Source: Rhodospirillaceae bacterium (lineage in GTDB: Bacteria > Pseudomonadota > Alphaproteobacteria > Dongiales > Dongiaceae). From it: 64,000 bases of DNA. Of the stretch, positions 15,351-45,071 are shown piece after piece (position 1 is the first letter of the stretch; each line of letters begins with the position of its first letter). The stretch lies in NCBI GenBank assembly GCA_008012315.1, contig SSEL01000014.1, positions 1-64,000 of the forward strand, given 5' to 3'. The position numbers were made by a program, and so were the translations under genes. Below the pieces are notes generated by a model, which saw only the letters and a program-made list of their open reading frames with translations, searched no databases and had not been told where the DNA came from.

Positions 15351-16340
15351 GTGCGGGTAAGCGGCATGAATTCGGTGGTTAATTGCGCCATTTATGAGGA
15401 TGGGCGCAAGCTTCGGGATCTCGATATAAATGATGCCGAGCAAATGAAAACCTCGGCCGGCCAGTTGATCTGGATTGGTCTCCTGGAGCCCAGCCAGGAA
15501 ATGCTGGCGCCATTGCAACGGCAATTTGGCCTGCACGATCTGGCCATCGAAGATGCCTATCGGGCACATCAGCGACCGAAGCTCGAAGTCTATGGCGACA
15601 CCGTCTTCGTGGTGATGAAGACCTGTCAGTGGCTGGATGGCGAACTGGCCTTGGGCGAAACCTGTTTCTTCGTGGGCCGGGGATATCTGATCTCCGTGCG
15701 ACACGGAAAGTCGCTGAGTTATCGGCCGGTTCGCGAACGCTGCGAAAACGCTCCGGGGAAGTTGAAGAAAGGCGAAGATTTCATCCTCTATGCCTTGATG
15801 GATTTCATCGTCGACAATTATTTCCCTGTCGTCGATGCCCTCGAGGAAAAGGTCGAAGAATTGGAAGACGCCATTTTCGAGAGCCGGGATCGGCACCGGG
15901 ACATCTTGTCGGAAATCTCCGTTTTGCGCCGTGATCTCCTGGCGATGCGCCATGCGGTGGCGCCGCTGCCGGATATCTGCCAGCGGATTATCCGCTTCGA
16001 CGTGCCGACGATGGACAAGAACACGCAGCCTTATTTCCGCGACATCTATGATCACACCAATATCCTGATGGACCGCATCGAGGCCTTGCGGGAAACGGTG
16101 AAATCGGTTGTCGATTCCAAGATGCTCATGGTGTCGATGCGGCAGAACGAGGTGATGCGCAAGCTTGCCGCCTGGGCCGCCATGCTGGCGGTCCCGACGG
16201 CGGTGGCCGGCATTTACGGGATGAATTTCAGCAATATGCCGGAACTGACCTGGCGTTATGGCTATTTTGCCGTGCTGGGCGTGATCGTCGTGATCTGCAT
16301 TGGCTTGTTCTGGCGCTTCAAGCGATCCGGCTGGCTGTAA
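15351..16340 (+). CDS. CorA family divalent metal transporter
   Basis: A 329-residue homopentameric Mg2+/Co2+ channel-type protein. A long N-terminal cytoplasmic alpha/beta domain and a long helix (residues about 150-260) precede two C-terminal membrane helices, with the signature YGMNF after the first and a basic tail. The start is GTG 15351, which has an excellent ribosome binding site (GGGAAGTGA, seven of nine matches); ATG 15366 is a weaker alternative. A second, divergent CorA-family gene lies at 44064. No structured leader is apparent here. Confidence 0.93.
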   Translation: MRVSGMNSVVNCAIYEDGRKLRDLDINDAEQMKTSAGQLIWIGLLEPSQEMLAPLQRQFGLHDLAIEDAYRAHQRPKLEVYGDTVFVVMKTCQWLDGELALGETCFFVGRGYLISVRHGKSLSYRPVRERCENAPGKLKKGEDFILYALMDFIVDNYFPVVDALEEKVEELEDAIFESRDRHRDILSEISVLRRDLLAMRHAVAPLPDICQRIIRFDVPTMDKNTQPYFRDIYDHTNILMDRIEALRETVKSVVDSKMLMVSMRQNEVMRKLAAWAAMLAVPTAVAGIYGMNFSNMPELTWRYGYFAVLGVIVVICIGLFWRFKRSGWL

Positions 16341-38069: not shown

Positions 38070-38194
38070 CGGTAGCCTCTTCTTGTTCTGCGATCGGGAG
38101 GCTGACCGGAGAGACGCATGCGGAAGGCGGTACCGAACGGCAACACCTGCAAGCGGCCACAGGACACCCCGCCCGGGGACGAAACGTCGTTCAC

Positions 38195-38390
38195 GGCAGG
38201 TCTCCTGGCTCGCGGGTTCTGGCCTTCGTCCCGCCTTCCCAATGCGGCCGGACGACTGCCCGGGGCATCAGTGGCTGAATTGGACGATGGCTCGCCGCTT
38301 ACAGTTGCGGGGGCAGCGCCGGATTCGTCATCGCCGACTTACCGGTCTTCCCTCTTAGCTCTAGATGTAGATTTCCAGAGAACCGTGTTC
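38195..38390 (-). ncRNA. Cobalamin riboswitch upstream of nrdAB
   Basis: Read on the minus strand, the region has the ordered conserved elements of the cobalamin aptamer: GGTTCTCTGG at the 5' end, AAGAGGGAA, CTGCCCCCGCAACTGTAAGC, the B12 box GCCACTG (38275-38269), TTGGGAAGGCGGG, and the closing AGCCAGGAGACCTGCC. It ends about 125 bases before nrdA. Binding of adenosylcobalamin is expected to turn nrdAB off, leaving deoxynucleotide synthesis to a B12-dependent enzyme. The downstream leader contains CCCCGGGCGGGG, which may be part of the switch. Confidence 0.95.
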
Positions 38391-38394
38391 TCAA

Positions 38395-38424
38395 GATGTA
38401 GCAGAGTGGCCGGACTGATTTCAA
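38395..38424 (-). promoter_or_regulatory. Probable nrdAB promoter
   Basis: On the minus strand TTGAAA (38424-38419) is followed after 18 bases by TACATC (38400-38395), a fair sigma-70 pair. It would start transcription just before the riboswitch aptamer. It lies immediately downstream of the metF stop. Confidence 0.4.
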
Positions 38425-40395: not shown

Positions 40396-40423
40396 TTGAC
40401 TTGAGGGGGAGGTCCCGTAGCAT
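40396..40423 (+). promoter_or_regulatory. Probable metE promoter
   Basis: TTGACT (40396-40401), a 16-base spacer, and TAGCAT (40418-40423) form a reasonable sigma-70 promoter whose transcript would begin at the 5' edge of the cobalamin riboswitch. Confidence 0.5.
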
Positions 40424-40431
40424 GGATTTCG

Positions 40432-40619
40432 TTCACGGTTCCTCGGAACATTGATGCCGAGGCTAAGAGGGAATCCGGAAAACCGGAGCTGCCCCCGCAA
40501 CTGTAGGCGATGAGCTGCTTTTGATCGGTCGATGCCACTGATGGCCGGGTGCCATTGGGAAGGCGGGATCGGCGATAGACGATCAAACAGCGTTGAGTCG
40601 TTAGCCAGGAGACCTGCCG
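40432..40619 (+). ncRNA. Cobalamin riboswitch upstream of metE
   Basis: The aptamer elements appear in order: GGTTCCTCGG, AAGAGGGAATCCGG, GAGCTGCCCCCGCAACTGTA, the B12 box GCCACTG (40534-40540), TTGGGAAGGCGGGATC, and AGCCAGGAGACCTGCC. Cobalamin should repress metE, so that the B12-dependent synthase MetH is used when B12 is available. It is the second copy of this riboswitch class in the window and points the opposite way to the one on nrdAB. Confidence 0.96.
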
Positions 40620-40916
40620 TGCACGGGAGAGGTTTTCGGGCGGGGTGTTCCGGTAAGTCGCATTGTGATGGCAGGCGCTTCGCCTGCCGCTGATCGCTCC
40701 ATGCGTCTGCACGGCCCACGCTTCCAATGTGTTGGAGGGTGCCGATGTTCATCAGCGGATCTACGAACCGATTGCAGGATTGCCGGCCGGCACCGATGCC
40801 ACCGCCTTAGGTTTGTTCGGCCGGTCGGCTGCAGCGAAACAGCAATCACTTTTTGATCATCAATAGCTGCGGCTGGTGCATCCATTCAATTGGGGGCGGT
40901 CGCGGAGGGAGTTCTC
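40620..40916 (+). other. metE leader between riboswitch and start codon
   Basis: A 297-base leader. Just after the aptamer is CGGGCGGGGTGT (40637-40648), also found after the nrdAB riboswitch. A perfect hairpin GGCAGGCG-CTT-CGCCTGCC (40670-40688) lacks a T-run, so it is not a classical terminator. Positions 40729-40866 (GTG start, 45 codons) form an open frame whose product includes DVHQRIYEPIAGLPAGTDAT and ends in QQSLFDHQ; it reads like a protein fragment but has no ribosome binding site. A 21-codon frame at 40745-40810 has a good GGAGGG site. None of these is certain. Confidence 0.4.
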
Positions 40917-43729: not shown

Positions 43730-43804
43730 GGCATGTGCGGGCGCCGCCGGGCTTGTCGCGCGACGCCCGTATGGCTGTCATGAAACAGTTACAACCTTCC
43801 CTAG

Positions 43805-43833
43805 TTGACTCTGTTAAGGCCCAGGCGTAGGAA
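43805..43833 (+). promoter_or_regulatory. Probable promoter of the CorA-family leader transcript
   Basis: TTGACT (43805-43810), a 17-base spacer and TAGGAA (43828-43833). The -35 is good and the -10 poor. It would produce a leader of roughly 220 bases before the transporter gene. Confidence 0.4.
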
Positions 43834-43839
43834 ACCAAA

Positions 43840-44063
43840 AGGATTACCGGTTCATCCCTGTGAAAAGCAGGAACGGAGCGGTGTCCCTCATAACCCCGGA
43901 AAGAAGCGATGAAAGACGAACCACGAAGTCGATCTAGATTGATCGAAACCGTCCGCGGGACGGCGTCGGTCGTGCTTGTCGCTCTGAAGCGGTCCTAAGC
44001 GCCGCTCCGATCGCCGGTCGACCGAGGCGCTCTCCCGCTCAAAAGCATGTTGAGGAGGGGGCC
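43840..44063 (+). promoter_or_regulatory. Structured 5' leader of the second CorA-family gene
   Basis: A 224-base stretch with several nested pairings. CCTG-TGAAAAG-CAGG forms a hairpin at about 43857-43872. CGGAGCGGTGT (43874-43884) can pair with bases 43999-44009 (GCGCCGCTCCG, two G-T pairs). Between them TCGATC/GATCGA (43929-43946) and CCGTCC-GCG-GGACGG (43949-43963, perfect) form local hairpins. A 29-codon open frame lies within. No M-box, ykoY or other metal riboswitch signature is present. It probably controls the transporter by attenuation. Confidence 0.55.
43909..43998 (+). CDS. Candidate leader peptide upstream of the CorA-family gene
   Basis: An open frame of 29 codons plus TAA, MKDEPRSRSRLIETVRGT and eleven more residues ending in KRS. 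GGAAAG lies five bases before the ATG. Codons 5-10 read CCA CGA AGT CGA TCT AGA, a cluster of Arg and Ser codons that the neighbouring genes avoid. The stop codon directly abuts the 3' arm of the long-range leader stem (43999-44009), so a ribosome finishing or stalling here would change the folding. Enterobacterial mgtA and corA have leader peptides used in this way; similarity is in design, not in sequence. Confidence 0.45.
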   Translation: MKDEPRSRSRLIETVRGTASVVLVALKRS

Positions 44064-45071
44064 ATGGTCCTGAATAAATTCCGCAACCGGGCGTTGGATG
44101 CCGCGCGCAATGGCGCCAGCGGCGAAGGCAACGCAGCACCGGAAACCGGCAGCGAAACCTCGGTCGTTGCCGCACCGGTACCCGTTTGGATTGATATGTT
44201 GAGCCCGACGATGGAGGAGATTGCCGCCGTCGAGAAGAGCCTCGACCTGGAAATCCCCACCCGGGAAGAAATGGAAGAGATCGAGCTGTCCAGCCGCCTT
44301 TATGAAGAAGAAGGCGTGCTCTTCATGACGGCGCCGGTTCTCTATAATTCCTCGACGGAAGTACCGGCAACCTCGGCGGTCACGTTCATCCTGACACGTA
44401 CCACCTTGGTCACGTTGCGATATGTCAATCCCGTGCCGATCCAGGCTTTTGCCCGCCGGGCCGAGCGGGTGTCCGGCTTGATGGCCAGCCCGGATATGGT
44501 GCTGCTGGGCATATTGGAGCAGGTGGTCGATCGCCTCGCCGATATCATGGAGGCGACGACGGCCAATCTGGAATCCGTCTCATTGCGGGTATTCCGCAAG
44601 GGGCGCCGCACGGGTGCCGCAGGTGAGGATTTCGAGGACATTCTGCGCCAACTCGGCCATGCCGCCGATTTGGCGACGAAGGCCAAGGAGAGCCTGCTCG
44701 GTCTGCACCGGCTGACTCTTTTTCTGTCGACCCAGTCACGGCTGAAGAAGAACCCGCAGGCCCGGCTGAAGACGTTGTCGCGCGATATCGCCTCGATTAC
44801 CGAGCACGGCAATTTCCTGGCCAACAAGGTCACCTTCCTGCTCGATGCGACCCTCGGCCTGATCAACATTGAACAGAACAACATCGTGAAGATTTTCACG
44901 GTGGCGTCGGTTGCCTTCCTGCCGCCGACCCTGATCGCCAGCATTTACGGCATGAATTTCAAGATTCTGCCGGAGCTGGATTGGAGCTTGGGTTATCCCT
45001 TCGCCATCGGGCTGATGATCATGTCGGCGGTTTTGCCTTTCTGGTATTTCCGCCGGCGCGGCTGGTTGTAA
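44064..45071 (+). CDS. CorA family divalent metal transporter (second copy)
   Basis: A 335-residue membrane channel-type transporter. After a variable N-terminus the cytoplasmic domain begins PVWIDMLSPTMEEIAAVEKSLDLEIPTREEMEEIE; two C-terminal helices flank the signature YGMNF (in ASIYGMNFKILPELDW). TGAGGAGG lies just before ATG 44064. It is clearly distinct from the copy at 15351. The long leader with a small upstream open frame suggests control by Mg2+ or by translation status. Confidence 0.93.
   Translation: MVLNKFRNRALDAARNGASGEGNAAPETGSETSVVAAPVPVWIDMLSPTMEEIAAVEKSLDLEIPTREEMEEIELSSRLYEEEGVLFMTAPVLYNSSTEVPATSAVTFILTRTTLVTLRYVNPVPIQAFARRAERVSGLMASPDMVLLGILEQVVDRLADIMEATTANLESVSLRVFRKGRRTGAAGEDFEDILRQLGHAADLATKAKESLLGLHRLTLFLSTQSRLKKNPQARLKTLSRDIASITEHGNFLANKVTFLLDATLGLINIEQNNIVKIFTVASVAFLPPTLIASIYGMNFKILPELDWSLGYPFAIGLMIMSAVLPFWYFRRRGWL

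Follow-up and report, generated by a model that had tools for sequence, protein, structure and literature searches.

A short reading frame with a conserved EPxS core precedes corA in alphaproteobacterial relatives and is a probable switch operated by the ribosome

The corA locus and its leader

The window analysed here, that is, the whole stretch of 64,000 nt, contains a corA gene preceded by a leader in which a short upstream open reading frame (uORF) is found. The upstream neighbour of this leader is an ORF of the thioesterase family, with metE located before that ORF. The features of the locus are the following:

43804..43832, + strand: candidate promoter TTGACT-17-TAGGAA, read off the sequence
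43839..44063, + strand: corA leader of ~225 nt, its start inferred from the candidate promoter (folding z -2.35)
43874..43884, + strand: 5' arm of the long-range stem proposed in the initial annotation
43898..43903, + strand: Shine-Dalgarno (SD) sequence of the uORF, GGAAAG, 5 nt from its ATG
43909..43998, + strand: uORF encoding the putative leader peptide MKDEPRSRSRLIETVRGTASVVLVALKRS, 29 codons, from ATG 43909 to TAA 43998
43918..43929, + strand: E-P-R-S core including the AGT serine codon (GAR-CCN-CNN-AGT conserved in relatives)
43921..43938, + strand: rare-codon run CCA CGA AGT CGA TCT AGA, codons 5-10
43930..43945, + strand: perfect local hairpin CGATC-TAGATT-GATCG, inside the uORF
43949..43963, + strand: perfect local hairpin CCGTCC-GCG-GGACGG, inside the uORF
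43999..44009, + strand: 3' arm of the long-range stem, pairing with 43874..43884
44020..44069, + strand: predicted sequestor hairpin that encloses the corA SD and AUG (14/16 bases of the SD/AUG region paired)
44064..45071, + strand: corA, encoding a CorA-like Mg2+ transporter of 335 aa (PF01544, E 1.1e-50)

The candidate promoter was not listed by a generic scanner. Its spacing and -10 box (TAGGAC) are similar in leaders L043, L217, and L232, others showing TTGACA-17/18-TACCA, and a promoter-like site of the form TTGAC-17/18-TAGGA or TACCA precedes most of the uORF-bearing leaders described below. The leader folds more strongly than its shuffles (z -2.35; 2/200 shuffles), and no terminator-like sites were found within it. 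An overlapping GTG frame (43881-43937), possibly with its own SD (VSLITPERSDERRTTKSI), spans the uORF start in another reading frame.

Every element that the initial annotation had named in this region was found at the coordinates given there, including the 29-codon frame at 43909-43998 with its GGAAAG ribosome binding site, the two perfect hairpins inside it, and a leader before the CorA-family gene, then estimated at about 220 bases. Codons 5-10, described as unlike those of neighbouring genes, are indeed exceptional, their rarity being equalled in only 4 of the 14,606 in-frame six-codon windows from the 30 long ORFs of the window. The remark that no riboswitch class was recognisable agrees with the Rfam scan, in which no family, M-box (ykoK) included, matched the leader at gathering score. 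The only Rfam matches in the window correspond to two divergent cobalamin riboswitches, at 38178-38402 (-, 115 bits) and 40419-40635 (+, 107 bits), the second one preceding metE at 40890.

A second, divergent CorA-family gene is located at about 15366-16337 of the window, with 23% identity to the first; on a brief reading of its upstream region, no EPxS uORF was seen.

The uORF among relatives

CorA orthologs were gathered at several levels, namely the family of the window, its class, and related orders, together with a named set of genomes, and their upstream regions were compared. An ATG uORF whose early codons encode E-P-(P/H)-S was present in 8 of the 9 further genomes with this corA in the window's family, as well as in all 8 genomes of genus g322, which belongs to another family, including the MAG SZUA-351. 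Among non-redundant upstream regions, an EPxS-type uORF was detected in 17/18 leaders of these two groups versus 0/186 other corA orthologs, a contrast for which the Fisher value is descriptive only, because both groups were recognised by the trait itself. Examples of the encoded peptides within the family are MNRAQSSSAEPPSRGF.. (L007), MTGTQSSAVEPHSRRC.. (L004), and MTYFRHTLCEPPSSSS.. (L003), whereas those of g322 begin with MTEPPSWFVD.., MTEPPSPMFI.., MITEPPSQLC.., MPTEPPSCVV.., MSSEPPSCVN.., MSNEPPSFAL.. (twice), and MPSEPPIRAT... The leaders also have a common geometry, with the ATG located 105-177 nt and the stop codon 41-74 nt before the corA AUG. We conclude that the finding is real and reaches beyond the window into its relatives.

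Alignment of the distinct sequences on the Glu codon in frame 0 revealed E in 15/15 and P in 15/15, followed by P, H, or R, and then S in 13/15, with a mean top frequency of 0.92 in this frame versus 0.75 in frame 1 and 0.62 in frame 2. The wobble bases vary (GAA or GAG for Glu; CCT, CCC, CCG, or CCA for Pro), and therefore it is the peptide and its codons that are kept; L007 and L008 differ at three sites within their first 14 codons, all of them third positions. AGT encodes the serine in 16 of the 17 leaders, with a shift of one codon downstream in L006, and most uORFs use CCT. An acidic residue with Pro is found within the first codons as DEP in the window and as EP in the 16 other leaders, the second acidic residue beside the motif being mostly missing in relatives. 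Outside EPxS, the window's peptide has diverged.

The frame noticed in the initial annotation is thus conserved in relatives, and the remark on its rare codons is valid beyond the window, AGT, CCT, and AGA/AGG being scarce in the relatives' corA genes (3% of Ser, 1.4% of Pro, and 2.8% of Arg codons, respectively). However, although a rare-codon stretch recurs, the conserved part is the E-P-x-S core around it, which had been missed.

Several searches define the range of the element. No EP-type uORFs were found upstream of corA in Thalassospira, Magnetospirillum, or Mesorhizobium. Within the family, the pattern GARCCNCCSAGTAG retrieved the corA leaders and, in addition, three sites located within other genes. 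In a scan with GARCCTCCCAGT over 385 alphaproteobacterial genomes, none of the sites inspected, a subset of all, qualified as a convincing uORF with an SD before a gene other than corA. A uORF-like frame in L156, from another family (MPTDPFSRSG..), resembles the core but was rejected, as it precedes a small ORF upstream of corA and not the corA start. The exception within the window's family is L002, sister of L003, which shows a degenerate NPSN frame instead of EPPS.

The stop codon of the L002 uORF overlaps the corA start (ATGA), which suggests that this leader has been converted to plain translational coupling. In L010 (G015:C74), the leader is intact and the corA match contains one in-frame TAG, for which reason this gene may be broken or mis-sequenced.

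In the CorA tree, all the uORF-bearing genes fall within one clade of 22 sequences (support 100/99) and are represented in each of its three subclades, requiring four changes of the trait. Members without uORF are those of Thalassospira and Magnetospirillum, L040-L042, and L113; the corA of the window is placed beside the Thalassospira/L040/L042 group, which lacks it. The tree is compatible both with one old gain followed by losses and with more than one gain.

Predicted folding of the leaders

In the relatives, the corA SD is predicted to pair with an anti-SD located just upstream, as in L007, where GCCUCCGGGU pairs with ACCCAGGAGGC. This anti-SD can instead pair with the last codons of the uORF (ACCCGG/CCGGGU), within a longer stem that has the stop codon in its loop. 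When the EP codons were occupied by a modelled ribosome, anti-SD bases re-paired with uORF codons in 16/17 leaders, and the cost of opening the corA SD was lower with the ribosome on EP than on the last codon, with a mean difference of 3.6 kcal/mol over 14 leaders, compared with 0.1 kcal/mol (maximum 1.0) in a control where the sequence up to the uORF stop was shuffled (14 leaders, 40 shuffles each, the ribosome being a simple 30-nt mask). In each of L003-L010, opening the SD cost more when the ribosome was placed at the uORF end instead of EP, and the difference reached 4.4-6.7 kcal/mol in L005, L007, L008, L010, L218, and L221. By leader, the effect was strong in L004, L005, L007-L010, L218, L221, and L232, moderate in L006, weak in L003, L043, L217, and L220, and slightly negative in L236 and L237. 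In a consensus fold of seven leaders, covariation was weak owing to indels, and each leader was modelled separately instead. As modelled, the uORF/anti-SD/SD arrangement common to the relatives points to translational control of the mgtQ type, and not necessarily to Rho.

The window's own leader behaves differently in these models. Within its sequestor (44020-44069), the anti-SD CTCTCC (44030-44035) pairs with GGAGGG (44054-44059), and this hairpin barely responds to ribosome position, with an opening cost of about 16 kcal/mol (mostly 15-19). The difference between ribosomes at EP and at the uORF end was 0.4 against a shuffle mean of 0.7, and this lack of excess is attributable to the strong and local character of the sequestor. 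With the SD masked, pairing between 43989-44003 and part of the anti-SD becomes possible, the balance favouring closure. The bases at 43998-44003, i.e., the last one of the uORF and the first ones of the 3' arm of the long-range stem, have an alternative partner at 44026-44031, adjoining the anti-SD. A candidate antisequestor GCGGGA/UCCCGC (43955-43960/44033-44038) was rejected, as its probability in the ensemble was zero.

Regarding the long-range stem of the initial annotation, its 11 pairs exist, two of them G-U, but no counterpart was found in relatives, none of which is close enough to be aligned there, and their predicted folds show another arrangement. Its ensemble probability is about 0.4, dropping to near 0 once a modelled ribosome covers codons 5-12 or the last codon. 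From the proposal that this locus represents an alphaproteobacterial counterpart of the enteric Mg2+ leader peptides, the recurring rare-codon leader peptide and its acidic-Pro content stand, whereas the stem finds no support in relatives.

In the window, support is thus good for the leader peptide but not for the switch. Either the folding energies miss something (cotranscriptional folding, Mg2+, or initiation before the hairpin forms), or Rho exerts the control, or the window carries a decayed device.

Ribosome position and control of corA

What the leaders of these orthologous corA genes have in common is a similarly placed ATG uORF with E-P-(P/H/R)-S(AGT), preceded by an SD; most of them also have 3' uORF codons complementary to the anti-SD that otherwise sequesters the corA SD. 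At the start site of the transporter gene, the tiny uORF probably acts as a switch driven by ribosomes, and the reading that we favour, with moderate confidence, is that of a leader peptide controlling corA translation by ribosome position. Under low Mg2+, or when elongation over the acidic-Pro and rare codons is otherwise hard, ribosomes would halt at EPxS or leave the message there; with the 3' part of the uORF left untranslated, its codons could then trap the anti-SD, leaving the corA SD free and allowing CorA to be made. Conversely, read-through to the stop codon would release the anti-SD and close the corA start. We infer both Mg2+ as the signal and the destabilising role of EPxS from the enteric mgtL and mgtQ. 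Speaking against this reading are the behaviour of the window's own leader, the weak effects in L043, L217, and L220 and the slightly negative ones in L236 and L237, the single acidic residue before Pro in most uORFs, the four changes of the trait in the tree, and its absence from the corA genes nearest to that of the window (Thalassospira, L040, L042). More tentatively, and with the balance somewhat against it, these leaders may represent an undescribed Mg2+-responsive class, acting with neither riboswitch nor Rho, in which EPxS and rare codons (AGT, CCT, AGR) time the ribosome and the 3' codons of the uORF serve as anti-anti-SD. If so, the class would date back to the early history of this CorA clade and have been lost repeatedly, or it would have arisen on more than one occasion.

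Two other explanations, both unlikely in our estimate, draw on the behaviour of the window's own leader. A genuine leader peptide could act on transcription, its translation exposing or hiding a Rho site as in enteric mgtL and corL; the corL leaders of E. coli and Salmonella operate in this way (PMC11552253), and a leader without intrinsic terminator and an SD hairpin that, as modelled in the window, is insensitive to ribosome position would fit such a device, for which, however, the anti-SD that sequesters the corA SD in relatives and is able to pair with uORF codons would be superfluous if it were purely Rho-based. With a similarly low probability, the window's uORF could be a decayed or chance frame, the working device existing in sister genera only. 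The grouping of its corA with Thalassospira, L040, and L042, all without uORF, the absence of a predicted switch, and the divergence of the peptide outside EPxS would agree with decay, of which L002 offers an example. Against it, the uORF is found in 8/9 other corA leaders of the family, and, when the leader of the window is shuffled with its dinucleotides preserved, a uORF with such geometry, SD, and EPxS together appears at a frequency of only 1.7e-4, under criteria that were set after the relatives had been seen.

The conserved codons themselves admit further readings. It is improbable, though conceivable, that the uORF senses a cue other than Mg2+, such as poor decoding of rare codons (AGT, CCT, AGR), charged tRNA-Pro, or EF-P/EttA activity, CorA then belonging to a broader response: the near invariance of AGT and the use of CCT in most uORFs, despite their 3% and 1.4% shares of their codon families, speak for it, but selection on AGT could act at the RNA level, the controlled gene is a predicted Mg2+ transporter, and the enteric acidic/Pro uORFs report Mg2+. 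Least credible to us is that GARCCUCCCAGU constitutes an RNA element, e.g., a second anti-SD (CCUCC), whose reading frame is incidental. Identity of CCTCCCAGT in many leaders and an invariable C as first base of the third codon would be expected of such an element, whereas the existence of variants (CCG CCG, CCT CAT, CCC CAC, CCA CGA), the variation of the Glu wobble base, the restriction of the SD-preceded ORF to frame 0, and the maintenance of the motif in g322 while the corA SD changes (GGGGAC or GGAGG) argue against this reading.

Among known systems, control by ribosome position would resemble mgtQ of the Salmonella mgtCBRU operon, which acts on the mgtB SD by alternative pairing (PMC8092293): in both cases a short ORF with acidic codons is involved, and ribosome abortion frees the SD of a Mg2+ transporter from an anti-RBS stem, here as modelled. 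However, mgtQ is an ORF of 8 codons situated between mgtC and mgtB, with its acidic codons at positions 2 and 5 (PMC8092293), whereas the uORFs described here have 20-35 codons, are located in the 5' leader of corA, and combine the EPxS core and rare codons with an antisequestor in their 3' codons; no sequence relation between them was seen. With mgtL they share acidic-Pro codons near the N terminus, before a Mg2+ importer whose expression, in mgtL, is raised by inefficient translation (PMC11282234, PMC11552253), but the output in Salmonella is Rho-dependent termination, mgtA encodes a P-type ATPase, and the motif is EPDP instead of EPxS. The acidic-Pro codons of MgtL abort ribosomes, and a designed NKDEPD motif, to which MKDEP of the window is close, is strongly EttA-dependent in E. 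coli reporters (PMC11282234). The published destabilising motifs have two acidic residues, whereas most uORFs here have one before Pro. As for corL, it is also a uORF before corA, and its translation is inverse to that of corA (PMC11552253), as it would be in the model proposed here, but its start codon in E. coli is UUG and its action involves Rho, and the stems of the enterobacterial corL leader were not recognised in the leaders studied here. The polarity of early stop for on and read-through for off has been reported for mgtL, corL, and mgtQ alike (PMC11282234, PMC11552253, PMC8092293).

Of the features that mark the mgtL/mgtQ kind, the leaders show a short ORF behind an SD, conserved in relatives and located upstream of a gene for a predicted Mg2+ transporter, as well as Pro together with acidic residues early in the peptide; mgtQ-type alternative pairing freeing the SD is predicted in most relatives, but not in the window's leader. 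The element looks like mgtQ and mgtL in anatomy, and by sequence it is not a member of either. No earlier description of an EPxS leader peptide of corA was found in the literature searched, where most subscription journals are missing. Ribosome-destabilising leader peptides of Mg2+ uptake are known from enterobacteria, and an unrelated alphaproteobacterial case before corA would show that acidic-Pro translation is a repeatedly used Mg2+ sensor; the small and sharply defined core (EPxS, AGT) lends itself to direct ribosome-pausing tests. Outside the enteric systems, the M-box/uORF2 leader of Mycobacterium tuberculosis pe20, which has an M-box aptamer where none is found here at Rfam gathering score, is a Mg2+ leader that likewise combines SD, anti-SD, and anti-anti-SD with a conserved uORF (PMC12810186).
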